A stretch of DNA of 64,000 nt from Cryomorphaceae bacterium (GCA_017798125.1 CP059070.1:186001-250000), one strand, 5' to 3'. Shown: positions 19,752 through 63,763, numbered from the stretch's first letter. The notes: generated from the letters alone by a model not told the origin. Made by a program: numbers and translations.

Positions 19752-19788
19752 GGAGACATAGGTGTAGGCGAAAAATAGGAAAAATGCA

Positions 19789-19809
19789 GGCATCGCGCCA
19801 TAGGCGCAT
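19789..19809 (+). repeat. REP-like short hairpin
   Basis: GGCATCG then GCGCC-ATA-GGCGC followed by an A-rich run. Same family as the element at 16734; it abuts the next terminator. Confidence 0.6.
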
Positions 19810-19810
19810 A

Positions 19811-19834
19811 AAAAAACCCCGAGCATTCGGGGTT
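19811..19834. terminator. Bidirectional-type terminator hairpin
   Basis: AACCCCGA / TCGGGGTT stem with a GCAT loop; on the minus strand it is followed by a long T run (complement of the A run at 19808-19816). It ends the metH-metF-direction transcript and lies just downstream of a possible 39-codon gene. Confidence 0.85.
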
Positions 19835-42605: not shown

Positions 42606-42666
42606 AAATCACCCATTTAAATCTTTAAGGCTCTTCACGGTACTTCCTTTCCAAAGAGTCTAAAAC

Positions 42667-42696
42667 AAAAAAGCCCCCTCCGCTATGGAGGGGGCT
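42667..42696 (-). terminator. Terminator of giant adhesin gene A
   Basis: Minus-strand AGCCCCCTCC ... GGAGGGGGCT hairpin followed by six T. An identical copy follows gene B. Confidence 0.92.
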
Positions 42697-42726
42697 CTGT
42701 TTATAAGGTTTTCAGCTCTTATCCGC

Positions 42727-45700
42727 TTACTTCTGGATCACCAGGCGGCGGTTGTCTGAGTCTGTTCCGTTGCTGATCACTACGTAGTATACTCCGTTGG
42801 CCAAGTCAGCAACATCCAAGCGAACTTTACCCGTCAAGGCATTCGCTTCAGTTGTGCTCATGACAACTTGTCCAAGTCCGTTCACCACATTGATCTCCAA
42901 GTTTTGCTCACTTGAGAACTCATATCCTACGAACACTACATCTGATGTTGGGTTCGGATACAAGCTGATCATCTCGCTCAACGCTGGCTCTTCGATGCCT
43001 ACTCCTGAGATTGGGCTTTGATCTACTACTACGCTTGATACTTGCGAACATCCGTTTGCGTCGGTCACCACTACAGAGTACGTACCGTTTGGTAGGCTTA
43101 CTGCTGTTTGAGTGAACTGTGCTGGTACACTGTTCCACTGGTAGCTGTAAGGTGGTGTTCCACCGCTCACATTAGCTACTGCCGATGAGGCACTAGTACC
43201 CGCATCATAAACAGCGGTTACGATAAGCTCGGTAGGCTCGCTGATGATTACTGAGTTGTTGGCGGTACATCCGTTCGCATCAGTCACCACTACAGAGTAT
43301 GTTCCTGCAGATAGGTTGTTGATGTTCTGGGTGTTGTCACCAGTGTTCCAAGCAATCGTGTAAGGAGGTGTACCTCCGCTCACGTTCAAGCTAGCTGATC
43401 CGTCTGATCCACCGAAGCAGTTCACGTTGCTCTGTACGATGCTCGTAGCGATCGCGCTGTTCTGAGTGATGGTCGCACTTGCGTTCACCACACATCCATT
43501 CGCGTCAGTGATCACAACGTTGTAGCTACCCGCTACTACGTTCAACAGATCCTCTGTATTCGCTCCGTTGCTCCATGCGTAGCTGTATGGTGCAGTACCA
43601 CCAGTTACCGTCAAGTCAACAGTTCCAGTTGCATCTCCGAAGCAGTTCACATTCGTTACCGTAGTCGAAGCTACCAAAGCAGCTGGCTCGCCTACAGTCA
43701 CACTCGCAGTGAACGTACATCCGTTCGCATCAGTAATCACTCCTGAGTAGATACCCGCTGGTACGTTGCTCAAGTCTTGGCTGATCGCTCCGTTGCTCCA
43801 AGCGTAGCTGTATGGAGGTGTTCCACCCGTCACGGTAATGTCTACCGCTCCGTCTGTTCCACCGTTACAGCTTACGTTCGTTACAACCGCGTTGCTTACT
43901 GTGATTCCTGTTGCTGGCTCAGTGATCACGATCGTTGCGCTAATGCTACATCCGTTCGCATCCGTTACTGTTCCTGTGTATGAACCTGCTGGTACGTTCA
44001 TCAAGTCTTGAGTCACTGCACCGTTGCTCCAGTTGTAGGTGTATGGTGCTGTACCGCCAGTAACCGTAAGGTCAATCATACCGGTGCTTGCTCCGTTACA
44101 CAATACATCTGTTACTACTGCGCTGGCAGCCAAAGCAGAAGCAGGTCCCGCTACAGTTACCGTTGCAGAGAAGGTACATCCAGCCGCATCGGTTACCGTA
44201 CCGGTGTACGATCCTGCTGGAATGTTGCTCAAGTCTTCAGTGTTGTCTCCATTGCTCCACATGAAGCTGTATGGAGGCGTACCACCTGTTACTGTGATAT
44301 CAATCGCTCCTGTTGCATCACCGAAGCACAATACGTCGGTTACAACAGCACTTACGCTGATTGGCGATGCTGGTCCGTTAACAACCGCACTTGCAGTTGT
44401 GCTACATCCGTTCGCATCTGTGATGATTACGGTGTATGTTCCAGGTGCCAAGTTCGTGCGATCCTCGCTGGTGATTCCGCCACCCCAGTTGTAGGTGTAT
44501 GGCATTGTTCCACCTGTTACGGTTACATCAACCGTTCCGTTGTTCGCTCCGAAGCAGTCTACATCTGTAGCTACTGTTGTCGCAGTCAACAAGCTAGGCT
44601 CGGTCAAGGTCGTAGAAGCACTTACTGTAGCTCCACAAGCATCGGTTACGTTGATGATGTAAACACCAGCAGCCAATCCTGTACGATCTTCGATTCCAGT
44701 GACACCGTCACTCCAAGTAATGGTGTATGGCATCGTTCCTCCAGTGATCGTTGACATGATCATACCGTCCATTCCGCTGTTACAGCTTGGGTTGGTCGTC
44801 GCATCAATCGTTACCGCCAACATATCTGGCTCACTAATCACTACTGTATTGGTCGCGGTACATCCGTTCGCATCAGTTACCGTCACGCTGTACGTGCCAG
44901 CTCCCAAGTTAGACAGATCCTCAGTGTTCGCTCCATTGCTCCAGTTGAAGCTGTATGGTGCAGTTCCTCCTGCTGGAGCCAAGTCGATAGAACCTGTAGT
45001 TGCTCCGTTACAGTCAACATCTGTAGCCTTCGCTACTGTCGCCAACAATTGAGATGGCTGATCAACAACCAATCCTTTGATGAAGGTCTGACATCCATTC
45101 GCATCCGTTACCGTCACTTGGTATCCACCAGCAAACAAGTCTTGTGGATTCTGTACGGTAGCTCCGTTGCTCCAGCTGAAGCTGTATGGTGTTGTTCCAC
45201 CTGTTACCGAGATATCGATAAATCCAGTGTTGTCACCGAAGCAAGTAAATACATCCTGTACGGATACTAGTGATGCAGCCAATGGCGAAGTAGGTCCAGT
45301 TATCGTCACAACGTTACTGGTTACCATACATCCGTTCGCATCCGTTACGTCTACAAAGTAGCTACCACCTGAGATCAAGTTGTCAATCGACGCTGTCGTC
45401 GCTCCATTGCTCCACATGTAGCTGTATGGCATTGTTCCACCACTCACTACTACGCTCACCATTCCAGTAGCATCACCGAAGCAGTTCACATTTGTTGCAG
45501 AAGCTACAGCACTCAGACTTGTAGACTGTGTTACTGTGATTCCAGAGATTCCATCAGTACATCCGTTCGCATCGGTAATCGCTACTGCGTATACACCCGC
45601 TGGAATACCACTCAAGTCTTGAGTCGTTGCACTGAACAATGGATCATCGCTCGTCCATGCATACGTGTATGGAGATGTTCCTCCTGATACGCTGATGTCG

Positions 45701-48700
45701 ATCGCTCCAGTTGTCGCTCCGTTACATCCAATATTGGTTACACTCTCTACTCCGCTAGCCAAAGCTGATGCAGGTTCAGAGATGGTTACACTCAAGAATT
45801 CTTGACATCCGTTCGCATCGGTAATGGTTACTGAGTTCACACCCGCCATAAGGTCGGTTGGGTCTTGTACCATTGATCCGTTGCTCCACATGTAGCTGTA
45901 TGGAAGCGTTCCACCTACTACGTAGATATCTGCTGTTCCATCCATTCCTCCGTTACAGCTTACATCCGTAAAGCCGATTACAGAAGCATACAAGCTTGAG
46001 AATGGCTCTGTGATAACAAAGCTCTGTACCGTTGTACATCCGTTAGCATCCTCTACTACTACACTGTAAGATCCTGCAGCCAATCCGCTGATATCTTCTG
46101 TAGTAGCTCCGTTGGTCCAGTCATACATGTATGGTGCTGTTCCTCCAGTTACGCTCAAGTCAATCGCTCCTGTAGCGTCTCCTTTACAAAGAACATCCGT
46201 ATCAACTCCTGTGACAACCAAAGTAGTCGCAGTTCCGATGGTGAATGTGGCAAAGCCTTCACAACCGTACTTATCGTTGATGCGTACTGTATACTCACCC
46301 GCACACAATCCAGCTGGATCCTGTACTGTACTCAATACTGGTCCTGTAGGCACTCCGTTTACTGAAGCTCTCCAGTAGTACGTGTATGGCGCTGTTCCTC
46401 CTGTAGGAGTCAAGTCAATCAATGAAGTTGAGCAGTCTCCAGCACAAGCAACATCCGTTACTACTGCTGTTCCACCTACTGGCATTGGCTCGTATACATC
46501 TACGCTTACTGTAGTGGCACATTGTCCCGTAGCATCGGTAATGGCTACCGTGTATGTTCCGGCAAACAATGGGTTTCCGTCAACATTCACACCAGTGCTC
46601 ATTCCAGTACCACCAGTACTCCACAAGTAGCTGTATGGAGGAATACCTCCTGTTACGCTTACTACAGAAGCCGTTGCGTTAAATCCACCTGGACACAAGA
46701 TGCTGTCCGCTGCAGTCACAACTGTCAAGCCAGCTGGCTCAGTAATCGTGAAGCTCGCTTGTGGCACAGTACATCCGTTCGCGTCTGTTACATCTACGAA
46801 GTACGTTCCAGCTCCCAATCCTGTGAAGGTGTTGCTACCTCCGTCAGTGGCAATTGAACCACTAGCGTTTGTCGCTCCGCTTACTACCCATGCGTATGGA
46901 GCTACACCACCTGAGATGGTCACAGAAGCTGTCGCATCCGTTCCTCCGTTACATGTTACGCTCGCATCGCTAACCAAATCAACTACGATTGGTGCAGGAC
47001 CAGTCTCCTCAAAGACTGCGTAATACGTACATCCTCCTACTAAGTCATCTACTTCGATGGTGTAGAAGCCTACTCCCAAGTTCACAGCATTCGCCATTCC
47101 ATTCACTACCATGCCAGACTGACCAGCAAGTGGAGTGATTGGTCCTGGGTACTGACCAGCATACCACTGGTAAGTGTATACTCCTGAACCTCCTGAGATA
47201 TTCGCTACCGCTGATCCAGTAGTATCACCGAAGCAGTCGATATCGTCTTTTCCTGTAAACGTGATGGTCAAGTCTGAAGGCTGACCAATCACTGCTTGGT
47301 CAAACTCTTTACATCCCTGTGCATCCGTTACTGTAATGTCATAAGTACCAGCGGCCAAACCACCGATCGTTCCTTCCCATGCTGTTCCTGGGAACGTGTT
47401 GTCGCTCAATCCAGTCAACATTCCGCTACCAGCAGTTGTACCATTTGACCATACCATGTCGTATGGTTGAGTACCCTGGTCGATGTTGAAAACAAACGAT
47501 CCATCAGCCAATCCGAAGCAGCTCGCATCCGTAGTAGATACTACGCTGGTGACCAACTTCGTAGGCTCTGTAATGCTCGCTGTAGCTCCAGCTGCAGGAC
47601 ATCCGTTCTGATCAATTACTGCAATTGAGTATGATCCCGGTGCCAAGCTGTTGATCACAATCGGCGCAAATGGTGCAGTCAAGAAGGTACTGTCTACCGT
47701 CGCTCCTGCTCCGTCCGTTGTTACTACAATATATGGTCCGTTTCCAGAGGTTACATCAATTTCGATGCTTCCATCATTCGCTCCATTACACGTTACATTA
47801 CCCAAAGTCAAGGCTACTGTCGCTGGATCCGTTCCATCAGCTACGAAGAATGGGAAGTCAAACTCACATCCGTTCGCATCTGTGATGGTCAAGCTATAGT
47901 TTCCTGATACTAAGTTCAACAGGTCTGTTGTACCCGCTACAGGACCGTTAGGACCTTCCCAAGCGTAGCTCAACGCTCCAGTACCACCGCTAGCAGTGAT
48001 GTGGATCTCTCCCGCTGTACCCTTAGCACAAGCTGTATTGTTTACAATGTCATCAATGACTGTTACTGCTGGAGCCTCTCCTACGTTGTAGCTCTCTGTA
48101 GCGCTACATCCGTTAGCATCCGTTACAACAACTGATACTGTCGCTCCCGCTGCCAATCCAGACAAAGAGTTGCTCGTTGTTGTCATTCCTCCATTCCAAG
48201 AGTATACATATGGTGCCGTTCCACCAGTCACCGATACAGATACGCTTCCGTCTGGTGAGTAAGTGTCCGAACCACTGTTACAGCTCGTCGGTGTAATCGT
48301 CTCCGTAATCGCAATCGATGCAGGAGCAGTTACAGTAAACTGCAATGTATCCGAATTACAACCTCCGGCACCTGCCCAGATGTTGTAGTCTCCAGGCGCC
48401 AAAGAAGAAATAGTAATTGGCGTTGTTCCAATTGCAGAGGTAACAATAGTTCCACTCAAGTCATCAACTTGAACGTAGTACTGATCCATACCAGGACCAA
48501 ATGGTCGTCCTCCAGCAAGGTTTACAGTGATCTCTCCTGATCCACCACTACAGCTTGGGTCCGTTTGACTTGCAATAGCAATTGTTGTCTCATCCGGCTC
48601 AGTAACGGTGTAAGATACGCTCTCAACACATCCGTTCGCATCTGTAACATTCACAGTGTACACTCCTCCTGGTACGCCGCTGATCGATTGACCGTTAACA

Positions 48701-49104
48701 CCGTTACTCCAAGAGTAGCTCAACATTCCTGTTCCACCACTTGCCGTTACAGAGATAAACGCATCTGTGTCTCCGAAGCAATCCAAATCTGTCTTGTTCG
48801 CAGGATCGTTAGTGATAACAATCGCCGCTGGCTCATTGATGATGATGTTCAAGTATACTACCGTACATCCTACCGCATCTGTTACCGTTACAGAGTAGTT
48901 TCCTGCTCCTAGGTTCGAGATGTCTGGTGTCGTTGCAGCGTTGCTCCACAAGTACGTGTATGGAGGTGTTCCTCCTGTTGTTCCACCGTTGTCAATCTCT
49001 CCGTCCATACCTCCGGCACATGTTACGTCCGTACGGTTGAAGTTCGCTACCTCAATGGAGCAGCTGGTTGAGTGATGACATAGTTTCCTGTTGCCGGTCC
49101 ACAT
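42727..49104 (-). CDS. Giant SprB-repeat T9SS adhesin A, C-terminal fragment (frameshifted)
   Basis: The 3' part of gene A. The true frame continues from the fragment at 49047-53555 but is broken near 49053, where one C (plus strand) is missing relative to copy B. The real coding part begins just after that point; the first ~17 residues of this frame are spurious. It holds about 25 SprB-type repeats with the pattern CxGxxDGxxxxxxxGGTxPYxYxWSNG ... TDANGC, each ~75-85 residues, then a type A T9SS domain ([17 protein letters not shown] ... RLVIQK). SprB-like proteins are mobile gliding or attachment adhesins. No sprC, sprD or sprF neighbour is present. Confidence 0.9.
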   Translation of the reverse strand: MWTGNRKLCHHSTSCSIEVANFNRTDVTCAGGMDGEIDNGGTTGGTPPYTYLWSNAATTPDISNLGAGNYSVTVTDAVGCTVVYLNIIINEPAAIVITNDPANKTDLDCFGDTDAFISVTASGGTGMLSYSWSNGVNGQSISGVPGGVYTVNVTDANGCVESVSYTVTEPDETTIAIASQTDPSCSGGSGEITVNLAGGRPFGPGMDQYYVQVDDLSGTIVTSAIGTTPITISSLAPGDYNIWAGAGGCNSDTLQFTVTAPASIAITETITPTSCNSGSDTYSPDGSVSVSVTGGTAPYVYSWNGGMTTTSNSLSGLAAGATVSVVVTDANGCSATESYNVGEAPAVTVIDDIVNNTACAKGTAGEIHITASGGTGALSYAWEGPNGPVAGTTDLLNLVSGNYSLTITDANGCEFDFPFFVADGTDPATVALTLGNVTCNGANDGSIEIDVTSGNGPYIVVTTDGAGATVDSTFLTAPFAPIVINSLAPGSYSIAVIDQNGCPAAGATASITEPTKLVTSVVSTTDASCFGLADGSFVFNIDQGTQPYDMVWSNGTTAGSGMLTGLSDNTFPGTAWEGTIGGLAAGTYDITVTDAQGCKEFDQAVIGQPSDLTITFTGKDDIDCFGDTTGSAVANISGGSGVYTYQWYAGQYPGPITPLAGQSGMVVNGMANAVNLGVGFYTIEVDDLVGGCTYYAVFEETGPAPIVVDLVSDASVTCNGGTDATASVTISGGVAPYAWVVSGATNASGSIATDGGSNTFTGLGAGTYFVDVTDANGCTVPQASFTITEPAGLTVVTAADSILCPGGFNATASVVSVTGGIPPYSYLWSTGGTGMSTGVNVDGNPLFAGTYTVAITDATGQCATTVSVDVYEPMPVGGTAVVTDVACAGDCSTSLIDLTPTGGTAPYTYYWRASVNGVPTGPVLSTVQDPAGLCAGEYTVRINDKYGCEGFATFTIGTATTLVVTGVDTDVLCKGDATGAIDLSVTGGTAPYMYDWTNGATTEDISGLAAGSYSVVVEDANGCTTVQSFVITEPFSSLYASVIGFTDVSCNGGMDGTADIYVVGGTLPYSYMWSNGSMVQDPTDLMAGVNSVTITDANGCQEFLSVTISEPASALASGVESVTNIGCNGATTGAIDISVSGGTSPYTYAWTSDDPLFSATTQDLSGIPAGVYAVAITDANGCTDGISGITVTQSTSLSAVASATNVNCFGDATGMVSVVVSGGTMPYSYMWSNGATTASIDNLISGGSYFVDVTDANGCMVTSNVVTITGPTSPLAASLVSVQDVFTCFGDNTGFIDISVTGGTTPYSFSWSNGATVQNPQDLFAGGYQVTVTDANGCQTFIKGLVVDQPSQLLATVAKATDVDCNGATTGSIDLAPAGGTAPYSFNWSNGANTEDLSNLGAGTYSVTVTDANGCTATNTVVISEPDMLAVTIDATTNPSCNSGMDGMIMSTITGGTMPYTITWSDGVTGIEDRTGLAAGVYIINVTDACGATVSASTTLTEPSLLTATTVATDVDCFGANNGTVDVTVTGGTMPYTYNWGGGITSEDRTNLAPGTYTVIITDANGCSTTASAVVNGPASPISVSAVVTDVLCFGDATGAIDITVTGGTPPYSFMWSNGDNTEDLSNIPAGSYTGTVTDAAGCTFSATVTVAGPASALAASAVVTDVLCNGASTGMIDLTVTGGTAPYTYNWSNGAVTQDLMNVPAGSYTGTVTDANGCSISATIVITEPATGITVSNAVVTNVSCNGGTDGAVDITVTGGTPPYSYAWSNGAISQDLSNVPAGIYSGVITDANGCTFTASVTVGEPAALVASTTVTNVNCFGDATGTVDLTVTGGTAPYSYAWSNGANTEDLLNVVAGSYNVVITDANGCVVNASATITQNSAIATSIVQSNVNCFGGSDGSASLNVSGGTPPYTIAWNTGDNTQNINNLSAGTYSVVVTDANGCTANNSVIISEPTELIVTAVYDAGTSASSAVANVSGGTPPYSYQWNSVPAQFTQTAVSLPNGTYSVVVTDANGCSQVSSVVVDQSPISGVGIEEPALSEMISLYPNPTSDVVFVGYEFSSEQNLEINVVNGLGQVVMSTTEANALTGKVRLDVADLANGVYYVVISNGTDSDNRRLVIQK

Positions 49105-52100
49105 CCGTTTCCGTCGTTAACCGTCACACTGTATGATCCAGCAGCCAATCCTGTCGCTGGGTTTGATGTCTGACCGTCACTCCACAAGTAGGTGTAGTTT
49201 CCGTCTCCTCCTGTTACATTAAGCGTTACCGCTCCGTCTGTTCCAGGGTTACATGAATTCTTAATATCTGCTGATGCAATTGCAACTGGATCTGGATCCA
49301 TCAAGGTTACAGACGATGTCGCCGTACATCCATTAGCATCCGTTACCGTTACATCATATGTTCCACCAGCAAGACCGGCGATGTTTTGCATCGTCATTCC
49401 GTTGCTCCATGCATAGCTGTATGGCATAGTACCTCCAGTCGCAGCAACACTTGCCGTTCCGTCAGCAGCTCCACCACAACTTGGGTTTGTTCCCGTTGCA
49501 GTCGCTTCCAACAATGCTGGCTCACCAACACTTACCGTTGTCATCGCTGTACAACCGTTGCGATCAGTTACCATTACTGTGTAGTTACCTGCTGGTACTC
49601 CATCAGCAATGTGGTCCATGATCGTAGTTGTACCACCTGACCAAGTGTAGATGTATGGATATCCGTTTGGATTAGCAGGCTCTCCTGGCGCACCAGTAAA
49701 CTGAGTTCCTCCGTCTACATCCAATACTACTGTTCCGTTCTCACCAAAACATGGCGCATCCGTTACACTGTTTACTACAACAGTCAATTCTGCAGGCTCA
49801 GTGATCGTAATACTCGCTGTAGCTGAACATCCGTTCGCGTCGCGGGCTGTTACGAAATACACTCCTTCTTCAGCACCAGAAAGGTTAGATCCGGTTGTAA
49901 GAATGCTCCCGTCACCACCAAATCCGAGTACATTTGAAGTTGCAAGTGTTGAACTCAATGTAGAAGAGAGGCCAGCAGTCAACTGCACCTCATAAATGTC
50001 GTTACAAACGTCCTTTGGTAACATCATTAAGGAAGAATTTCCCGTATACCAAATCGCCTTTACTCCATAATTTCCAGGACCACCAGCTGGGCAAGAAGGG
50101 AAAGTAGCAGCAATTGAGGCACTACCAATATTTGTTACTGCATAAGTAGATAAACTAACCTCTTCAACGATGACATCATCTAATATTTGATCGATGTGGG
50201 AAACTAGAAGCCGATCACTATCTGAATCATAGGCCACACCGACACCACTAATAGCACCTAGGTTCGCGACTATTGTCGTCGCAAGGGTACTGATATTCAC
50301 CTCATATACTTCACCTGAAGTATTGACTGTATAGAGCAAACCAGAATTTGCAATTGCGAAACTTGATATTCCCGTTGCGCTTAAGTCGCCTACAAACGTC
50401 AGACCCAATGTGTTTACGTCGAGCTCATATAGTTCTCGAGGGCCAGGAGCGAATCCACCAGTGGCGATAATATATACGGTACCATCTGTAGGATCAACTT
50501 CAATACCCCAAGCATTCGAAATTCCAGGAATAACTTGAGAAGAATTTTCTGTGATAACTCCACCATTCGAAGAAACTTCTACCAAACTAATTGTTCCACC
50601 GGGTGCACCTCCTCCGTTAATAGCATATTGCAATCCACTCCCTGTACTCCAAGTATAAGTATAACCACCTGCACCACCTGAAGCAGAAGCTACAGCTGAT
50701 CCGTCAGCGGCTCCGAAACAAGAGATGTCTGTTGCGTCTACAGATACTGTTACTGGGCTAGGATCAACAATTGTTACTGATCCAACTCCTGTACATCCGT
50801 TTGCATCTGTTACCGTTACTGAGTAAGGTGATCCAGCTGCCAACAATCCAGTTTCTGTAGCTGAGATTGCTCCCGTGCTCCACAAGTAGGTGTATGGCAT
50901 TGTTCCTCCACTCACTGAAGCTGTTGCCGCTCCAAAGTCTCCAGGACAATCCGGAGCTGTTGGCGTTACACTTACTGCAATTGGGGCAGGATCGTTAATG
51001 GTAAAGAAGAAGCTCTGCGGACATCCATTGTTATCCGTTACGCTCAATTCGTAGTTACCTGCTGCCAAAAACGACAGTGAAGCTTGTGAACCCGTACCAG
51101 GATTAAAAGACACTCCGTTTTGTATCCATACATAGTTGTATCCTGGTGTTCCACCGCTGATGGTTACAGCAATGCTACCATCACCAGCTCCTGCACATGA
51201 AATATCTGTTGCTCCACCTGAAATTGTAATTGCATCTGGCTCGCTAATGCTCACTGCCAAAGGAGCAGTACACCCGTTCGCGTCTGTTACAACTACATTA
51301 TACAATCCAGCAGTCAAACCGCTAAGATCTTCAGTCATGTCACCTGTGTTCCACATGTAGCTGTATGGCATTGTACCTCCAGATACATCCAAGTCGATAG
51401 CTCCGTCGCTACCTCCGTTACAGGTTACATCTTGTCCGTTCACGGTAGCCACTACTGTAAGTGCAGTTGGCTCTGTTACTGTAAAGAACAGGTTACCAAA
51501 AGTGACACAGCCATTGGCATCTTCGACAAATACGTCGTAGGTACCGGCGGACAATCCGCTAATATCTTCTGTGGTTGCACCGTTATTCCAGCTAAAGGTA
51601 TAAGGCGGTGTTCCATCTGTTACTGTAAGGTCAATCGAACCATTGTTGTCACCAGCACACAAAATGTTGGTCACTGTTCCTGATCCGCTCAAAGATGTTG
51701 GCTCAATAACATTGTACGTAAAGAATGCCTCGCATCCGTTAGCATCTGTTACGGTCAAGTCATATGATCCTCCTTCAAGGCCTCCAATACTTGCTTGTGA
51801 TCCACCACCACCGAAGATGCTGGTTCCACCTTGAACCCATGTGTAGGTGTATCCACCTGCTCCACCACTCAAAGTCACATCAATGCTTCCGTCTGCGTTT
51901 CCGTTACACGTTACATTGTTAATATCTGTCGCTGTAACTGAAATCGCATCTGGCTCAACAACCGTTACGTTAACCGTAGATGGTCCACAGCCATTTGCAT
52001 CCTGCACTTGGAAAGCGTACTGTCCGGCACTTACCGTTACAGTAAAGCTTGAACCTGTTACTGGGTTAGCACTTCCTGGGGCCAACAATGGCTCACCCCA

Positions 52101-53555
52101 TACATATGGTGCAGTACCTCCAGAAATCGACACAGTCACTTGACCGTCTGAGTCTCCGTTACAGGTTACGTCAATTACGTTCGTCACAGAAGCAGACAAC
52201 AAACCTGGCTCCGTAAACGTGAATCCAAACTCTTGTGGAGGACATGCGCCACCACTGTTGTCGCTAACTGTTACTTCATAGATACCTGGTGCCAATCCTG
52301 AAATACTCGTTACTCCATTTGCACCAGTACTCCACTCGTATGTATATGGCATTGAACCTCCACTTGCAGTCACTGCTGCAGTAGCTGTTCCACCAAAACA
52401 ATCAATCTCTTGTGTATTTGCATTGTCAATTCCTGCAGCAAATGCATTCGCAGGCTCATTAACAGTATACGTCTCTACAACAGTACAGCTTCCGCTTGTT
52501 ACTGTTACGGTATAGTCACCGGCCAACAAGCCAGCAATCGCATCCGTGTTTCCACCATTACTCCAAGCGTAAGTGAAACCTCCAACACCACCACTCGCAG
52601 TAATTGCAACCGCACCAGTCGGCTGACCAGCACATGCTACATCTGTAATATCTACATTAGAAACAACCAAAGCCGGAGCAGCAGCTACTGTCTCTGGCCC
52701 GTAGTTCACACTACATCCATTGGCATCCGTAATAACTACGCTGTAGTCTCCAGGTGCCAATCCAGTCAGATCTTCTGTCGTTGCTCCGTTGTCCCAAGCA
52801 AATGTGAAACCTCCGGCTCCACCACCAACAAGAATGTCAATAGTCCCGTCATTCAAACAAGGCTCTGTTTGATCCGTAACCGTTGTAGTGGATACTGTGA
52901 TCGAAGGCGGCTCGCTCAAGGTTACTGAAGCTGTAGCCGCTGGACATCCATTTACATCTGTTACTGTCAAATCGTACGTTCCAGCTGCCAACCCACTTGG
53001 GTTCGCACCGGCCGCTCCGTTTGTCCAGGTATAGGTGTATGGTGCCGTACCTCCGCTTACTGTAGTCGAGATAGATCCTGAATTGTCTCCATTACAAGCC
53101 AAGTCAGTTCCAGCTGCGATTACCGCAATTGCATCCGGTTGGGTTACCGTTACCGACATCGCTACAGCTGTTCCCGCTGCATTGTCTGTCACTGTAACAC
53201 TGTAAACCCCGGCAGCAACTCCTGTACGTGTCGAACCAAACAAAGAGAAGGTTGACCCGTCCGGCGCTACTGTACCATCAGGTGTGTTTTGATCTGAAGT
53301 CGCACCGTCACTCCATGCATAGGAATAAGGTACTGGACCGCCTGAAGCAGTCAAACGAATGATACCGTCCGTGCCACCGTTACAGGTGACATCCTGGTCC
53401 ACAAACAAAGTAGCAGCTAACTGCGCGTGGGCTACATTTCCCACTAACAGAAAGAATGCCATAGCCAAAAAGCTAATGAAAGTTCGCTTACCCGAGGACA
53501 ACAGGCCGCGATTCGAGACACCTGTATCAGGCGTCGCATTGTAGAGGTTACTCAT
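49047..53555 (-). CDS. Giant SprB-repeat T9SS adhesin A, N-terminal fragment (frameshifted)
   Basis: The 5' part of gene A, 1,502 codons before a stop caused by a 1-base deletion. The N-terminus MSNLYNATPDTG is followed by a signal peptide that begins only at about residue 27 (FISFLAMAFFLLVGNVAHAQ), an unusually long n-region. About 15 SprB-type repeats follow. Between codons ~970 and 1,240 one repeat is interrupted by a propeller-like insertion absent from copy B (49849-50648). Upstream bases 53556-53612 hold only one-mismatch promoter elements. Confidence 0.9.
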   Translation of the reverse strand: MSNLYNATPDTGVSNRGLLSSGKRTFISFLAMAFFLLVGNVAHAQLAATLFVDQDVTCNGGTDGIIRLTASGGPVPYSYAWSDGATSDQNTPDGTVAPDGSTFSLFGSTRTGVAAGVYSVTVTDNAAGTAVAMSVTVTQPDAIAVIAAGTDLACNGDNSGSISTTVSGGTAPYTYTWTNGAAGANPSGLAAGTYDLTVTDVNGCPAATASVTLSEPPSITVSTTTVTDQTEPCLNDGTIDILVGGGAGGFTFAWDNGATTEDLTGLAPGDYSVVITDANGCSVNYGPETVAAAPALVVSNVDITDVACAGQPTGAVAITASGGVGGFTYAWSNGGNTDAIAGLLAGDYTVTVTSGSCTVVETYTVNEPANAFAAGIDNANTQEIDCFGGTATAAVTASGGSMPYTYEWSTGANGVTSISGLAPGIYEVTVSDNSGGACPPQEFGFTFTEPGLLSASVTNVIDVTCNGDSDGQVTVSISGGTAPYVWGEPLLAPGSANPVTGSSFTVTVSAGQYAFQVQDANGCGPSTVNVTVVEPDAISVTATDINNVTCNGNADGSIDVTLSGGAGGYTYTWVQGGTSIFGGGGSQASIGGLEGGSYDLTVTDANGCEAFFTYNVIEPTSLSGSGTVTNILCAGDNNGSIDLTVTDGTPPYTFSWNNGATTEDISGLSAGTYDVFVEDANGCVTFGNLFFTVTEPTALTVVATVNGQDVTCNGGSDGAIDLDVSGGTMPYSYMWNTGDMTEDLSGLTAGLYNVVVTDANGCTAPLAVSISEPDAITISGGATDISCAGAGDGSIAVTISGGTPGYNYVWIQNGVSFNPGTGSQASLSFLAAGNYELSVTDNNGCPQSFFFTINDPAPIAVSVTPTAPDCPGDFGAATASVSGGTMPYTYLWSTGAISATETGLLAAGSPYSVTVTDANGCTGVGSVTIVDPSPVTVSVDATDISCFGAADGSAVASASGGAGGYTYTWSTGSGLQYAINGGGAPGGTISLVEVSSNGGVITENSSQVIPGISNAWGIEVDPTDGTVYIIATGGFAPGPRELYELDVNTLGLTFVGDLSATGISSFAIANSGLLYTVNTSGEVYEVNISTLATTIVANLGAISGVGVAYDSDSDRLLVSHIDQILDDVIVEEVSLSTYAVTNIGSASIAATFPSCPAGGPGNYGVKAIWYTGNSSLMMLPKDVCNDIYEVQLTAGLSSTLSSTLATSNVLGFGGDGSILTTGSNLSGAEEGVYFVTARDANGCSATASITITEPAELTVVVNSVTDAPCFGENGTVVLDVDGGTQFTGAPGEPANPNGYPYIYTWSGGTTTIMDHIADGVPAGNYTVMVTDRNGCTAMTTVSVGEPALLEATATGTNPSCGGAADGTASVAATGGTMPYSYAWSNGMTMQNIAGLAGGTYDVTVTDANGCTATSSVTLMDPDPVAIASADIKNSCNPGTDGAVTLNVTGGDGNYTYLWSDGQTSNPATGLAAGSYSVTVNDGNGCGPATGNYVITQPAAPLR
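49849..50648 (-). other. Propeller-like domain insertion specific to adhesin A
   Basis: This stretch replaces the core of a repeat that is intact in copy B (about 60775-60835) and makes A longer by 741 bases (247 codons, in frame). The encoded segment has blade-like repeats such as WGIEVDPTDGTVYIIATGG, GLLYTVNTSGEVYEVNIS and GVAYDSDSDRLLVSH, unlike the SprB pattern. Its base use looks more AT-rich than the flanking repeats, consistent with acquisition by recombination. Confidence 0.8.
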
Positions 53556-53633
53556 TTTGACGAAAATTAATGTCGGTTTTCAACGCGCTAATATACTTCA
53601 AATATTTTAATGCCTTTCCAAAGAGTCTAAAAC

Positions 53634-53663
53634 AAAAAAGCCCCCTCCGCTATGGAGGGGGCT
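53634..53663 (-). terminator. Terminator of giant adhesin gene B
   Basis: Same hairpin and T run as at 42667-42696; it lies between B and the start of A, so A must have its own promoter or rely on read-through. Confidence 0.92.
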
Positions 53664-53693
53664 CTGTTTATAAGGTTTTCAGCTCTTATCCGC

Positions 53694-56456
53694 TTACTTC
53701 TGGATCACCAGGCGGCGGTTGTCTGAGTCTGTTCCGTTGCTGATCACTACGTAGTATACTCCGTTGGCCAAGTCAGCAACATCCAAGCGAACTTTACCCG
53801 TCAAGGCATTCGCTTCAGTTGTGCTCATGACAACTTGTCCAAGTCCGTTCACCACATTGATCTCCAAGTTTTGCTCACTTGAGAACTCATATCCTACGAA
53901 CACTACATCTGATGTTGGGTTCGGATACAAGCTGATCATCTCGCTCAACGCTGGCTCTTCGATGCCGATTGATGGAAGTGGGCTTCCGTCAACTACTACA
54001 GAGGCTACAGAAGAACATCCGTTTGCGTCGGTCACCACTACAGAGTACGTACCGTTTGAAAGTCCTACTGCTGTTTGAGTGAACTGTGCTGGTACACTGT
54101 TCCACTGATAGCTGTAAGGTGCGGTTCCTCCGGTTACGTTCGCTACAGCTGAAGTAGCTGAAATCGTTGAGTCATAAACAGCGGTTACGATAAGCTCGGT
54201 AGGCTCGCTGATGATTACTGAGTTGTTGGCGGTACATCCGTTCGCATCAGTCACCACTACAGAGTATGTTCCTGCAGATAGGTTGTTGATGTTCTGGGTG
54301 TTGTCACCAGTGTTCCAAGCAATCGTGTAAGGAGGTGTACCTCCGCTCACGTTCAAGCTAGCTGATCCGTCTGATCCACCGAAGCAGTTCACGTTGCTCT
54401 GTACGATGCTCGTAGCGATCGCGCTGTTCTGAGTGATGGTCGCACTTGCGTTCACCACACATCCATTCGCGTCAGTGATCACAACGTTGTAGCTACCCGC
54501 TACTACGTTCAACAGATCCTCTGTATTCGCTCCGTTGCTCCATGCGTAGCTGTATGGTGCAGTACCACCAGTTACCGTCAAGTCAACAGTTCCAGTTGCA
54601 TCTCCGAAGCAGTTCACATTCGTTACCGTAGTCGAAGCTACCAAAGCAGCTGGCTCGCCTACAGTCACACTCGCAGTGAACGTACATCCGTTCGCATCAG
54701 TAATCACTCCTGAGTAGATACCCGCTGGTACGTTGCTCAAGTCTTGGCTGATCGCTCCGTTGCTCCAAGCGTAGCTGTATGGAGGTGTTCCACCCGTCAC
54801 GGTAATGTCTACCGCTCCGTCTGTTCCACCGTTACAGCTTACGTTCGTTACAACCGCGTTGCTTACTGTGATTCCTGTTGCTGGCTCAGTGATCACGATC
54901 GTTGCGCTAATGCTACATCCGTTCGCATCCGTTACTGTTCCTGTGTATGAACCTGCTGGTACGTTCATCAAGTCTTGAGTCACTGCACCGTTGCTCCAGT
55001 TGTAGGTGTATGGTGCTGTACCGCCAGTAACCGTAAGGTCAATCATACCGGTGCTTGCTCCGTTACACAATACATCTGTTACTACTGCGCTGGCAGCCAA
55101 AGCAGAAGCAGGTCCCGCTACAGTTACCGTTGCAGAGAAGGTACATCCAGCCGCATCGGTTACCGTACCGGTGTACGATCCTGCTGGAATGTTGCTCAAG
55201 TCTTCAGTGTTGTCTCCATTGCTCCACATGAAGCTGTATGGAGGCGTACCACCTGTTACTGTGATATCAATCGCTCCTGTTGCATCACCGAAGCACAATA
55301 CGTCGGTTACAACAGCACTTACGCTGATTGGCGATGCTGGTCCGTTAACAACCGCACTTGCAGTTGTGCTACATCCGTTCGCATCTGTGATGATTACGGT
55401 GTATGTTCCAGGTGCCAAGTTCGTGCGATCCTCGCTGGTGATTCCGCCACCCCAGTTGTAGGTGTATGGCATTGTTCCACCTGTTACGGTTACATCAACC
55501 GTTCCGTTGTTCGCTCCGAAGCAGTCTACATCTGTAGCTACTGTTGTCGCAGTCAACAAGCTAGGCTCGGTCAAGGTCGTAGAAGCACTTACTGTAGCTC
55601 CACAAGCATCGGTTACGTTGATGATGTAAACACCAGCAGCCAATCCTGTACGATCTTCGATTCCAGTGACACCGTCACTCCAAGTAATGGTGTATGGCAT
55701 CGTTCCTCCAGTGATCGTTGACATGATCATACCGTCCATTCCGCTGTTACAGCTTGGGTTGGTCGTCGCATCAATCGTTACCGCCAACATATCTGGCTCA
55801 CTAATCACTACTGTATTGGTCGCGGTACATCCGTTCGCATCAGTTACCGTCACGCTGTACGTGCCAGCTCCCAAGTTAGACAGATCCTCAGTGTTCGCTC
55901 CATTGCTCCAGTTGAAGCTGTATGGTGCAGTTCCTCCTGCTGGAGCCAAGTCGATAGAACCTGTAGTTGCTCCGTTACAGTCAACATCTGTAGCCTTCGC
56001 TACTGTCGCCAACAATTGAGATGGCTGATCAACAACCAATCCTTTGATGAAGGTCTGACATCCATTCGCATCCGTTACCGTCACTTGGTATCCACCAGCA
56101 AACAAGTCTTGTGGATTCTGTACGGTAGCTCCGTTGCTCCAGCTGAAGCTGTATGGTGTTGTTCCACCTGTTACCGAGATATCGATAAATCCAGTGTTGT
56201 CACCGAAGCAAGTAAATACATCCTGTACGGATACTAGTGATGCAGCCAATGGCGAAGTAGGTCCAGTTATCGTCACAACGTTACTGGTTACCATACATCC
56301 GTTCGCATCCGTTACGTCTACAAAGTAGCTACCACCTGAGATCAAGTTGTCAATCGACGCTGTCGTCGCTCCATTGCTCCACATGTAGCTGTATGGCATT
56401 GTTCCACCACTCACTACTACGCTCACCATTCCAGTAGCATCACCGAAGCAGTTCAC
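53694..56456 (-). CDS. Giant SprB-repeat T9SS adhesin B, C-terminal fragment
   Basis: 920 codons; the visible start is only where the frame re-opens after three indels at about 56481-56694 (one extra C, two missing C, plus-strand reading, relative to copy A). It carries about eleven SprB-type repeats and ends in the same T9SS type A domain as gene A. The last repeat differs from A in a block of equal length (A 42998-43206 versus B 53965-54173), while the sorting domain itself appears unchanged. Confidence 0.88.
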
Positions 56457-56611
56457 ATTTGTTGCAGAAGCTACAGCACTCCAGACTTGTAGACTGTGTT
56501 ACTGTGATTCCAGAGATTCCATCAGTACATCCGTTCGCATCGGTAATCGCTACTGCGTATACACCCGCTGGAATACCACTCAAGTCTTGAGTCGTTGCAC
56601 TGAACAATGGA

Positions 56612-59600
56612 TCATCGCTCGTCCATGCATACGTGTATGGAGATGTTCCTCCTGATACGCTGATGTCGATCGCTCAGTTGTCGCTCCGTTACATCAATAT
56701 TGGTTACACTCTCTACTCCGCTAGCCAAAGCTGATGCAGGTTCAGAGATGGTTACACTCAAGAATTCTTGACATCCGTTCGCATCGGTAATGGTTACTGA
56801 GTTCACACCCGCCATAAGGTCGGTTGGGTCTTGTACCATTGATCCGTTGCTCCACATGTAGCTGTATGGAAGCGTTCCACCTACTACGTAGATATCTGCT
56901 GTTCCATCCATTCCTCCGTTACAGCTTACATCCGTAAAGCCGATTACAGAAGCATACAAGCTTGAGAATGGCTCTGTGATAACAAAGCTCTGTACCGTTG
57001 TACATCCGTTAGCATCCTCTACTACTACACTGTAAGATCCTGCAGCCAATCCGCTGATATCTTCTGTAGTAGCTCCGTTGGTCCAGTCATACATGTATGG
57101 TGCTGTTCCTCCAGTTACGCTCAAGTCAATCGCTCCTGTAGCGTCTCCTTTACAAAGAACATCCGTATCAACTCCTGTGACAACCAAAGTAGTCGCAGTT
57201 CCGATGGTGAATGTGGCAAAGCCTTCACAACCGTACTTATCGTTGATGCGTACTGTATACTCACCCGCACACAATCCAGCTGGATCCTGTACTGTACTCA
57301 ATACTGGTCCTGTAGGCACTCCGTTTACTGAAGCTCTCCAGTAGTACGTGTATGGCGCTGTTCCTCCTGTAGGAGTCAAGTCAATCAATGAAGTTGAGCA
57401 GTCTCCAGCACAAGCAACATCCGTTACTACTGCTGTTCCACCTACTGGCATTGGCTCGTATACATCTACGCTTACTGTAGTGGCACATTGTCCCGTAGCA
57501 TCGGTAATGGCTACCGTGTATGTTCCGGCAAACAATGGGTTTCCGTCAACATTCACACCAGTGCTCATTCCAGTACCACCAGTACTCCACAAGTAGCTGT
57601 ATGGAGGAATACCTCCTGTTACGCTTACTACAGAAGCCGTTGCGTTAAATCCACCTGGACACAAGATGCTGTCCGCTGCAGTCACAACTGTCAAGCCAGC
57701 TGGCTCAGTAATCGTGAAGCTCGCTTGTGGCACAGTACATCCGTTCGCGTCTGTTACATCTACGAAGTACGTTCCAGCTCCCAATCCTGTGAAGGTGTTG
57801 CTACCTCCGTCAGTGGCAATTGAACCACTAGCGTTTGTCGCTCCGCTTACTACCCATGCGTATGGAGCTACACCACCTGAGATGGTCACAGAAGCTGTCG
57901 CATCCGTTCCTCCGTTACATGTTACGCTCGCATCGCTAACCAAATCAACTACGATTGGTGCAGGACCAGTCTCCTCAAAGACTGCGTAATACGTACATCC
58001 TCCTACTAAGTCATCTACTTCGATGGTGTAGAAGCCTACTCCCAAGTTCACAGCATTCGCCATTCCATTCACTACCATGCCAGACTGACCAGCAAGTGGA
58101 GTGATTGGTCCTGGGTACTGACCAGCATACCACTGGTAAGTGTATACTCCTGAACCTCCTGAGATATTCGCTACCGCTGATCCAGTAGTATCACCGAAGC
58201 AGTCGATATCGTCTTTTCCTGTAAACGTGATGGTCAAGTCTGAAGGCTGACCAATCACTGCTTGGTCAAACTCTTTACATCCCTGTGCATCCGTTACTGT
58301 AATGTCATAAGTACCAGCGGCCAAACCACCGATCGTTCCTTCCCATGCTGTTCCTGGGAACGTGTTGTCGCTCAATCCAGTCAACATTCCGCTACCAGCA
58401 GTTGTACCATTTGACCATACCATGTCGTATGGTTGAGTACCCTGGTCGATGTTGAAAACAAACGATCCATCAGCCAATCCGAAGCAGCTCGCATCCGTAG
58501 TAGATACTACGCTGGTGACCAACTTCGTAGGCTCTGTAATGCTCGCTGTAGCTCCAGCTGCAGGACATCCGTTCTGATCAATTACTGCAATTGAGTATGA
58601 TCCCGGTGCCAAGCTGTTGATCACAATCGGCGCAAATGGTGCAGTCAAGAAGGTACTGTCTACCGTCGCTCCTGCTCCGTCCGTTGTTACTACAATATAT
58701 GGTCCGTTTCCAGAGGTTACATCAATTTCGATGCTTCCATCATTCGCTCCATTACACGTTACATTACCCAAAGTCAAGGCTACTGTCGCTGGATCCGTTC
58801 CATCAGCTACGAAGAATGGGAAGTCAAACTCACATCCGTTCGCATCTGTGATGGTCAAGCTATAGTTTCCTGATACTAAGTTCAACAGGTCTGTTGTACC
58901 CGCTACAGGACCGTTAGGACCTTCCCAAGCGTAGCTCAACGCTCCAGTACCACCGCTAGCAGTGATGTGGATCTCTCCCGCTGTACCCTTAGCACAAGCT
59001 GTATTGTTTACAATGTCATCAATGACTGTTACTGCTGGAGCCTCTCCTACGTTGTAGCTCTCTGTAGCGCTACATCCGTTAGCATCCGTTACAACAACTG
59101 ATACTGTCGCTCCCGCTGCCAATCCAGACAAAGAGTTGCTCGTTGTTGTCATTCCTCCATTCCAAGAGTATACATATGGTGCCGTTCCACCAGTCACCGA
59201 TACAGATACGCTTCCGTCTGGTGAGTAAGTGTCCGAACCACTGTTACAGCTCGTCGGTGTAATCGTCTCCGTAATCGCAATCGATGCAGGAGCAGTCAAT
59301 GTGTATGAGTTCGTGTACTCACATCCGTTGGCATCAGTTACAGTCAATCCGTATGTACCGTTTCCAGCTACCAACGTGATTGGGCCTGCAGTTGAACCAG
59401 CATCACCGTTACTCCATACATAAGAGTAGTTTGGTGTACCACCTGAAACAACCAAATCAACTGAACCACTTCCAGCAGCACAGCTAGGATCTGTAGTTGT
59501 TCCTGTAACCGTGATTGCAGCTGGCTCGGTAACTGTGTAAGATACGCTCTCAACACATCCGTTCGCATCTGTAACATTCACAGTGTACACTCCTCCTGGT

Positions 59601-62600
59601 ACGCCGCTGATCGATTGACCGTTAACACCGTTACTCCAAGAGTAGCTCAACATTCCTGTTCCACCACTTGCCGTTACAGAGATAAACGCATCTGTGTCTC
59701 CGAAGCAATCCAAATCTGTCTTGTTCGCAGGATCGTTAGTGATAACAATCGCCGCTGGCTCATTGATGATGATGTTCAAGTATACTACCGTACATCCTAC
59801 CGCATCTGTTACCGTTACAGAGTAGTTTCCTGCTCCTAGGTTCGAGATGTCTGGTGTCGTTGCAGCGTTGCTCCACAAGTACGTGTATGGAGGTGTTCCT
59901 CCTGTTGTTCCACCGTTGTCAATCTCTCCGTCCATACCTCCGGCACATGTTACGTCCGTACGGTTGAAGTTCGCTACCTCCAATGGAGCAGCTGGTTGAG
60001 TGATGACATAGTTTCCTGTTGCCGGTCCACATCCGTTTCCGTCGTTAACCGTCACACTGTATGATCCAGCAGCCAATCCTGTCGCTGGGTTTGATGTCTG
60101 ACCGTCACTCCACAAGTAGGTGTAGTTTCCGTCTCCTCCTGTTACATTAAGCGTTACCGCTCCGTCTGTTCCAGGGTTACATGAATTCTTAATATCTGCT
60201 GATGCAATTGCAACTGGATCTGGATCCATCAAGGTTACAGACGATGTCGCCGTACATCCATTAGCATCCGTTACCGTTACATCATATGTTCCACCAGCAA
60301 GACCGGCGATGTTTTGCATCGTCATTCCGTTGCTCCATGCATAGCTGTATGGCATAGTACCTCCAGTCGCAGCAACACTTGCCGTTCCGTCAGCAGCTCC
60401 ACCACAACTTGGGTTTGTTCCCGTTGCAGTCGCTTCCAACAATGCTGGCTCACCAACACTTACCGTTGTCATCGCTGTACAACCGTTGCGATCAGTTACC
60501 ATTACTGTGTAGTTACCTGCTGGTACTCCATCAGCAATGTGGTCCATGATCGTAGTTGTACCACCTGACCAAGTGTAGATGTATGGATATCCGTTTGGAT
60601 TAGCAGGCTCTCCTGGCGCACCAGTAAACTGAGTTCCTCCGTCTACATCCAATACTACTGTTCCGTTCTCACCAAAACATGGCGCATCCGTTACACTGTT
60701 TACTACAACAGTCAATTCTGCAGGCTCAGTGATCGTAATACTCGCTGTAGCTGAACATCCGTTCGCGTCCATTGCAGTTACAGAGTACGCTCCAGCAGTC
60801 AAGCCACTGATGTTCGCACCTGATTGAGTGTTACTCCAAGTATAAGTATAACCACCAGCACCACCTGAAGCAGAAGCTACAGCTGATCCGTCAGCGGCTC
60901 CGAAACAAGAGATGTCTGTTGCGTCTACAGATACTGTTACTGGGCTAGGATCAACAATTGTTACTGATCCAACTCCTGTACATCCGTTTGCATCTGTTAC
61001 CGTTACTGAGTAAGGTGATCCAGCTGCCAACAATCCAGTTTCTGTAGCTGAGATTGCTCCCGTGCTCCACAAGTAGGTGTATGGCATTGTTCCTCCACTC
61101 ACTGAAGCTGTTGCCGCTCCAAAGTCTCCAGGACAATCTGGAGCTGTTGGCGTTACACTTACTGCAATTGGGGCAGGATCGTTAATGGTAAAGAAGAAGC
61201 TCTCCTGACATCCATTGTTATCCGTTACGCTCAATTCGTAAGATCCAGCATCCAATCCTGTTTGTGAAGTGATTGGGAAGTTTCCTCCGTCAAATGCAGT
61301 TCCAGACTCCAACCATACATAATTGTATCCTGGTGTTCCACCGCTGATGGTTACAGCAATGCTACCATCACCAGCTCCTGCACATGAAATATCTGTTGCT
61401 CCACCTGAAATTGTAATTGCATCTGGCTCGCTAATGCTCACTGCCAAAGGAGCAGTACACCCGTTCGCGTCTGTTACAACTACATTATACAATCCAGCAG
61501 TCAAACCGCTAAGATCTTCAGTCATGTCACCTGTGTTCCACATGTAGCTGTATGGCATTGTACCTCCAGATACATCCAAGTCGATAGCTCCGTCGCTACC
61601 TCCGTTACAGGTTACATCTTGTCCGTTCACGGTAGCCACTACTGTAAGTGCAGTTGGCTCTGTTACTGTAAAGAACAGGTTACCAAAAGTGACACAGCCA
61701 TTGGCATCTTCGACAAATACGTCGTAGGTACCGGCGGACAATCCGCTAATATCTTCTGTGGTTGCACCGTTATTCCAGCTAAAGGTATAAGGCGGTGTTC
61801 CATCTGTTACTGTAAGGTCAATCGAACCATTGTTGTCACCAGCACACAAAATGTTGGTCACTGTTCCTGATCCGCTCAAAGATGTTGGCTCAATAACATT
61901 GTACGTAAAGAATGCCTCGCATCCGTTAGCATCTGTTACGGTCAAGTCATATGATCCTCCTTCAAGGCCTCCAATACTTGCTTGTGATCCACCACCACCG
62001 AAGATGCTGGTTCCACCTTGAACCCATGTGTAGGTGTATCCACCTGCTCCACCACTCAAAGTCACATCAATGCTTCCGTCTGCGTTTCCGTTACACGTTA
62101 CATTGTTAATATCTGTCGCTGTAACTGAAATCGCATCTGGCTCAACAACCGTTACGTTAACCGTAGATGGTCCACAGCCATTTGCATCCTGCACTTGGAA
62201 AGCGTACTGTCCGGCACTTACCGTTACAGTAAAGCTTGAACCTGTTACTGGGTTAGCACTTCCTGGGGCCAACAATGGCTCACCCCATACATATGGTGCA
62301 GTACCTCCAGAAATCGACACAGTCACTTGACCGTCTGAGTCTCCGTTACAGGTTACGTCAATTACGTTCGTCACAGAAGCAGACAACAAACCTGGCTCCG
62401 TAAACGTGAATCCAAACTCTTGTGGAGGACATGCGCCACCACTGTTGTCGCTAACTGTTACTTCATAGATACCTGGTGCCAATCCTGAAATACTCGTTAC
62501 TCCATTTGCACCAGTACTCCACTCGTATGTATATGGCATTGAACCTCCACTTGCAGTCACTGCTGCAGTAGCTGTTCCACCAAAACAATCAATCTCTTGT

Positions 62601-62857
62601 GTATTTGCATTGTCAATTCCTGCAGCAAATGCATTCGCAGGCTCATTAACAGTATACGTCTCTACAACAGTACAGCTTCCGCTTGTTACTGTTACGGTAT
62701 AGTCACCGGCCAACAAGCCAGCAATCGCATCCGTGTTTCCACCATTACTCCAAGCGTAAGTGAAACCTCCAACACCACCACTCGCAGTAATTGCAACCGC
62801 ACCAGTCGGCTGACCAGCACATGCTACATCTGTAATATCTACATTAGAAACAACCAA
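56612..62857 (-). CDS. Giant SprB-repeat T9SS adhesin B, central fragment
   Basis: 2,081 codons, the largest open piece of gene B, spanning the junction that is broken in copy A (here [10 protein letters not shown] reads through). It begins after a 2-base deletion near 62867 and ends in nonsense after a deletion near 56694. Its repeats are the same as in A except for the missing propeller insertion, one exchanged whole repeat (B about 59290-59530, A 48318-48600, net 39 bases) and one exchanged half-repeat (B about 61200-61325, A 51015-51135, equal length). Confidence 0.88.
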
Positions 62858-63176
62858 AGCCGGAGCAGGCTACTGTCTCTGGCCCGTAGTTCACACTACA
62901 TCCATTGGCATCCGTAATAACTACGCTGTAGTCTCCAGGTGCCAATCCAGTCAGATCTTCTGTCGTTGCTCCGTTGTCCCAAGCAAATGTGAAACCTCCG
63001 GCTCCACCACCAACAAGAATGTCAATAGTCCCGTCATTCAAACAAGGCTCTGTTTGATCCGTAACCGTTGTAGTGGATACTGTGATCGAAGGCGGCTCGC
63101 TCAAGGTTACTGAAGCTGTAGCCGCTGGACATCCATTTACATCTGTTACTGTCAAATCGTACGTTCCAGCTGCCAA
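62844..63176 (-). CDS. Giant SprB-repeat T9SS adhesin B, small fragment
   Basis: 110 codons between two indels (near 63242 and 62867). The translation (GTYDLTVTDVNGCPAATASV ...) continues the second and third repeats exactly as in gene A, which shows this is one gene cut by sequence breaks rather than a separate small protein. Confidence 0.8.
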   Translation of the reverse strand: MAAGTYDLTVTDVNGCPAATASVTLSEPPSITVSTTTVTDQTEPCLNDGTIDILVGGGAGGFTFAWDNGATTEDLTGLAPGDYSVVITDANGCSVNYGPETVACSGFGCF

Positions 63177-63763
63177 CCCACTTGGGTTCGCACCGGCCGC
63201 TCCGTTTGTCCAGGTATAGGTGTATGGTGCCGTACCTCCGCTACTGTAGTCGAGATAGATCCTGAATTGTCTCCATTACAAGCCAAGTCAGTTCCAGCTG
63301 CGATTACCGCAATTGCATCCGGTTGGGTTACCGTTACCGACATCGCTACAGCTGTTCCCGCTGCATTGTCTGTCACTGTAACACTGTAAACCCCGGCAGC
63401 AACTCCTGTACGTGTCGAACCAAACAAAGAGAAGGTTGACCCGTCCGGCGCTACTGTACCATCAGGTGTGTTTTGATCTGAAGTCGCACCGTCACTCCAT
63501 GCATAGGAATAAGGTACTGGACCGCCTGAAGCAGTCAAACGAATGATACCGTCCGTGCCACCGTTACAGGTGACATCCTGGTCCACAAACAAAGTAGCAG
63601 CTAACTGCGCGTGGGCTACATTTCCCACTAACAGAAAGAATGCCATAGCCAAAAAGCTAGTAAAGCCTTTTGACAATACAGATCCTCTGTTTTTCGACGA
63701 AACGGTTCCTGGATCGCCCGTTGGACTTGATCCGCTTGAAACCTGATAGTAGAGGTTACTCAT
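63152..63763 (-). CDS. Giant SprB-repeat T9SS adhesin B, N-terminal fragment
   Basis: 203 codons. The N-terminus MSNLYYQVSSGSSPTG differs from A after the shared first five residues and is eight residues longer. The signal peptide core FTSFLAMAFFLLVGNVAHAQ is the same as in A. The frame runs through the first repeat and breaks after NSGSISTTV because one T (plus strand, near 63242) is missing relative to copy A; the final ~30 residues are out of frame. Confidence 0.85.
   Translation of the reverse strand: MSNLYYQVSSGSSPTGDPGTVSSKNRGSVLSKGFTSFLAMAFFLLVGNVAHAQLAATLFVDQDVTCNGGTDGIIRLTASGGPVPYSYAWSDGATSDQNTPDGTVAPDGSTFSLFGSTRTGVAAGVYSVTVTDNAAGTAVAMSVTVTQPDAIAVIAAGTDLACNGDNSGSISTTVAEVRHHTPIPGQTERPVRTQVGWQLERTI

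Follow-up and report, generated by a model that had tools for sequence, protein, structure and literature searches.

Adjacent giant SprB-repeat adhesin genes in a Cryomorphaceae bacterium as probable old paralogs under partial concerted evolution

Two giant adhesin genes that lie in tandem in the genome of a Cryomorphaceae bacterium, here called copy A and copy B, are identical over most of their length and differ strongly at their 5' ends and in four internal patches (p1 to p4). We consider it probable that they are old tandem paralogs under partial concerted evolution, in which gene conversion has left a few unconverted islands. This model explains the different leaders, the position-matched patches, the absence of donor sequences and the recurrence of the pattern in relatives.

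The gene pair and its differences

The window, that is, the whole stretch of 64,000 nucleotides that was analyzed, covers positions 186001-250000 of one 2.84-Mb contig, and the pair lies in its last third. The features are given below in window coordinates.

42727-53555, minus strand: copy A, giant SprB-repeat T9SS adhesin gene (PF13573, E 5.8e-241 and 2e-140; C-terminal Por_Secre_tail/TIGR04183)
53694-63763, minus strand: copy B, tandem paralog of copy A (alignment to A, repeat content)
42641-42726, minus strand: 3' flank of A, identical to the B 3' flank at 53608-53693 (86 bp), with a strong terminator hairpin
53476-53607, minus strand: leader, start and upstream region of A, shared with B only in the five initial codons, MSNLY (15 identical bases), and otherwise different
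A 43000-43204 / B 53967-54171, minus strand: p1, last repeat before the tail, a mosaic of equal length with 47 substitutions
A 48331-48607 / B 59297-59534, minus strand: p2, a complete repeat, linker to linker; the A version has 39 bp more
A 49842-50670 / B 60770-60857, minus strand: p3, in A a propeller-like domain nested in an SprB repeat (829 versus 88 bp, a difference of 741 bp)
A 51054-51135 / B 61241-61322, minus strand: p4, half repeat, main divergence (43 substitutions, equal length)
A 50952-51135 / B 61139-61322, minus strand: p4 together with isolated substitutions at 50952 and 51017-51019 (alignment)

SprB repeats (PF13573) were found in 24 and 14 stretches, with a spacing of mostly about 225-240 bp in A and B alike. 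At its C-terminus, copy A has a type A sorting domain of the T9SS (TIGR04183, 64.4 bits against a cut-off of 23; PF18962 also matched), and the sorting tail of B is base-for-base that of A. The sequence-only reading had taken the genes for surface adhesins, and the SprB repeats and Por_Secre_tail found in the pair bear this out and mark them as T9SS-type. The export machinery is next door, as genes matching the GldL, GldM and GldN models above cut-off (gldN, gldM, gldL) are located upstream of B, at a distance of a few genes. Two more T9SS-tailed proteins, one with BNR/sortilin-type repeats, are encoded in the window at 16787-18028 and 18018-19826. The 2.84-Mb genome as a whole spends heavily on giant surface adhesins, with at least eight other SprB-repeat loci on the same contig (at about 3 kb, 409 kb, 915-918 kb, 995-1000 kb, 1158-1163 kb, 1563 kb, 1714 kb and 2399-2432 kb).

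A and B have the appearance of independent units: each has its own leader and upstream sequence, and each is closed by the same terminator flank. The hairpin of the B 3' flank lies at 53665-53637, and the leader and upstream region of A abut this terminator directly. The leader of B is eight codons (24 bp) longer than that of A, upstream of A53476. Because the leaders differ despite their common MSNLY, and because the A upstream region adjoins the B terminator, the 5' ends of the two genes appear to have been separate for a long time. A simple recent duplication does not give distinct 5' ends, so conversion of old paralogs is favored.

In the bodies of the genes, the alignment contains 244 substitutions in 9964 columns, all of them within the four internal patches; the other 9249 columns contain no substitution. 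Substitution-free 100-bp windows number 88 of 99, where random placement gives a mean of 8.1 and a maximum of 18 (2000 draws). The body tract has a dS of 0 versus 0.61 in p1, and the leaders are different, meaning that the paralogs are far closer in the tract than in its flanks, synonymous sites included. The G+C content of the patches is 43-50%, versus 49% for the A and B genes. The distribution of the substitutions agrees with the earlier claim that differences cluster in patches, the leader among them. The coordinates first proposed were off by no more than about 15 bp, apart from those of p4, which consists of 51054-51135 and a few scattered sites. Patch p1 proved to be a mosaic in its own right, as it contains two stretches of 40-46 bp that are nearly identical.

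Both p1 and p4 can be matched, site for site, to the same repeat of the other copy. The divergence of p1 (dS 0.61, dN 0.18) indicates that one repeat exists here in two functional versions that separated long ago, and that neither was moved in from elsewhere. In p2, which has 127 substitutions in the alignment used, the B version is a canonical SprB repeat and the A version is divergent. Patches p3 and p4 each take up the variable half of a single SprB repeat, which is bounded by the conserved motifs YxYxW and DANGC. The alignable patches are old variants of one and the same repeat, homologous by position, and they carry a signature of purifying selection.

At p3, copy A carries ~247 aa where the B counterpart is a plain SprB half-repeat. 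The insert had been read as a propeller, and its sequence is propeller-like: it has a weak match to DUF4394 (22.7 bits, below the cut-off of 29.6) and a blade-like motif that recurs four times. The fold itself was not confirmed by a single-sequence model without alignment, which had a pLDDT of 35. A search of 119 genomes (118 besides its own) found no relative of the insert but itself, and a PDB sequence search returned nothing above chance level. A propeller-type domain is plausible from the sequence.

Homogenization of old paralogs or import of modules

In the process that we favor, A and B would be tandem paralogs of long standing that encode giant SprB-repeat adhesins, secreted by the type IX system and placed on the cell surface. 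The two would have recombined recently by homology, through either gene conversion or unequal crossing-over in the array, and this would have equalized the repeat stalk, the sorting tail and the terminator. The leaders, the promoters and four stalk islands, including the propeller-like one present in A only, would have escaped overwriting and retained their old divergence. We infer that conversion, in whichever direction, and not duplication came last; the islands may have been kept for their binding specificity.

The comparison set comprised 12 other genomes, with 45 stretches containing SprB genes. In two of these genomes, G024 and G012, we observed the same architecture: SprB genes in tandem whose N-terminal heads differ and whose stalks are identical, with the shared stalk, tail and 3' flank amounting to about 3-3.4 kb.

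G024, L037 3825-9203 and 9204-14855: adjacent adhesin genes
G012, L038 8037-12947 and L039 1510-5922 and 6066-10649: three nearby SprB genes

The N-termini of the G024 genes are unrelated, and one of them has an L-type (legume-type) lectin domain. The N-terminal parts are followed by a homologous patch in the GEVED region (dS 1.12, dN 0.22) and then by 3.4 kb of full identity that ends 17 bp past the stop codon. In the G012 trio the N-termini are likewise different, 2.9-3.2 kb of stalk and tail is near-identical, and the ends of the tract vary by pair; between the adjacent two genes the identity reaches 71 bp past the stop, across a terminator-like hairpin. The combination of different heads and identical stalks in two relatives is more in line with homogenization of old paralogs than with new modules having been inserted. 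An array of about 228-bp SprB units that are 80-94% alike was observed in a further genome (G019, L043 4345-9100), and possibly represents an earlier or decaying stage of such expansion. In the one same-genus genome (G001) both flanks of the locus were found, at about 71-77% DNA identity, with contigs ending at the adhesin; its SprB genes at other loci are about 40% identical. Among the named genomes scanned, one Saprospiraceae MAG gave a match, which at 29% identity is uninformative.

Three points count against the old-paralog model. The patches, at up to 277 bp and with a 741-bp length difference, exceed typical recipient interspersions. A single conversion would need to spare four islands, or else several events, all very recent, would be required. 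Finally, part of the identity between A and B could stem from collapse of repeats in the assembly.

The sequence-only reading had instead proposed module swapping by recombination and had suggested a search for donor cassettes in the rest of the genome and in sister strains. No donor was found for any patch. A whole-genome search with the eight internal patch sequences returned only the patches themselves and a short 87% match in a neighboring repeat; twelve stretches of the same genome contained no donor for any of them, and a search of the genome with the A leader gave the B leader and one match at chance level. Recombination did shape the pair, and to that extent the proposal holds, but cassette exchange from donors is not supported, given the lack of donors in the genome and the nature of the alignable patches as old variants of the same repeat. 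Nor are in-frame changes a clue to mechanism, as any surviving coding variation shows length changes that keep the frame.

A recent tandem duplication, after which single repeats and the leader were replaced from other strains or from a lost paralog, would account for the zero point differences in the body. It would also suit the patch boundaries, since p3 and p4 end at the YxYxW and DANGC motifs and p2 at repeat linkers, where recombination between repeats is expected. However, such a history requires no fewer than four imports plus replacement of the leader (at least five independent events) before the first point mutation, with no donor in the bacterium's own genome. In addition, the leader and upstream regions of A and of B are both distinct, and the alignable patches occupy the same position as their counterparts. 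We therefore regard this alternative as unlikely.

Small indels and the reliability of the assembly

Beyond the patches, A and B differ at six further places by 1-2 bp (five differences of 1 bp and one of 2 bp), most of them of CC/C type and one of T/TT type.

45513, 45707 and 45728: three 1-bp length differences of CC/C type (A/B alignment)
49052: 1-bp length difference of C/CC type that splits copy A (ORFs and A/B alignment)
52682-52683 and 53057: the other two of the six

As assembled, copy A consists of two overlapping ORFs (49047-53555 and 42727-49104) with the break near 49052, and copy B of three (63152-63763, 56612-62857 and 53694-56456). These indels break the frame in both copies, so that for the sequence as it stands the statement that all net changes are multiples of three is incorrect, and that of unchanged flanks was not confirmed.

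A control for such indels is provided by another giant SprB gene of the same genome (G000:C1:2405604-2429578; L034, L046, L035), in which 101 units of 240 bp (80 aa) are arranged head to tail. The units have 62 indel positions versus 8 substitutions in 24 kb, and 40 of the indels are at one CCC run. If the array belongs to a single gene, that gene would be >33 kb long. It would break dozens of times, so the best reading of the indels is as homopolymer errors that persist where repetition prevented polishing. The indels between A and B have the same signature and are thus probably uncorrected long-read errors as well. The patches themselves are not sequencing errors, with roughly 23-55% substitutions inside them in coding frame. 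The phase of the patches between A and B is uncertain, because the identical tracts are up to 5.1 kb long. These data are a warning that, in long-read genomes, frameshifts and patch phasing at such loci are not reliable at face value.

The same observations raise the question of whether the pattern is partly an effect of assembly, in which scattered substitutions were collapsed to one consensus, or strain variants were mixed, and only strongly divergent stretches were kept apart. The uncorrected indels in the contig's repeats and in A and B are in keeping with this, as are the long identical tracts that blur phasing and the giant SprB ORFs of unique sequence in the same genome (2304 to 4645 aa), which, unlike the repeats, are unbroken. 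Yet the unique leader and upstream region of A are joined directly to the 3' end of B, so a tandem array must exist, and the patch sequences are coding and in frame. Moreover, the ORFs in G012 and G024 are intact, so the pattern is not peculiar to the present assembly. An assembly effect of this kind is improbable, a little more so than duplication followed by swapping.

It is highly improbable that the locus serves active variation of antigens or ligands by means of silent cassettes or a dedicated recombinase: a surface adhesin with variable modules has the outline of such systems, but silent cassettes are absent from the genome, a search for long inverted repeats (as in inversion-type switching) found none, and the neighbors examined encode no recombinase but glycosyltransferases, TPR/mannosyltransferase-like proteins, ABC-F and gldLMN. 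Nothing points to a dedicated switching system, and active cassette switching is not supported.

Comparison with known systems

Returning to homogenization of old paralogs, it is conceivable, and we propose it only tentatively, that across this order the SprB adhesins encoded in tandem make up a general system of changeable heads on a shared stalk. Stalk, tail and terminator would be continually homogenized, and the heads (lectin, propeller or other) and chosen stalk repeats would be diversified under selection for new ligands. If this is true, giant adhesins of the SprB type, which serve surface binding and gliding in Bacteroidota, would be tandem families whose stalks evolve in concert as their ligand-facing parts diverge. 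This would explain how new binding specificity is gained without loss of secretion and anchoring.

The adhesin genes mgpB and mgpC of Mycoplasma genitalium, which have MgPar donor sequences, resemble A and B in having variable stretches (PMC2169797). The genome studied here has no donor or archive copies, and on this ground the pair does not belong with cassette-based antigenic variation. SprB of Flavobacterium johnsoniae, a gliding adhesin, shares with A and B the SprB repeats (PF13573), the giant size and secretion by the T9SS, with gldLMN near B. The pair differs from it in having a type A tail (TIGR04183) and two near-identical tandem copies.

The gingipains and HagA of Porphyromonas gingivalis are, like A and B, T9SS-secreted surface adhesins of Bacteroidota built of repeats. 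In a comparison of 21 strains, adhesin domains common to the paralogs kgp, rgpA and hagA were found to be rearranged and exchanged between alleles (PMC5266723). Their repeats, however, are cleaved adhesin domains and DUF2436, and the variation there comes from 21 strains, whereas here it comes from one genome. A likeness in tract structure exists to Helicobacter pylori, in which long imports acquired by experimental transformation are interrupted by short islands of recipient sequence with a mean of 82 bp (PMC2582958). In that species the exchange is between strains, whereas in the pair it would be between paralogs, as we infer, and the islands are of 82-277 bp, with one patch of 829/88 bp. 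Overall, the pair exemplifies a process whose kind is known, and does so with an unusually clear footprint; it does not amount to a new system.
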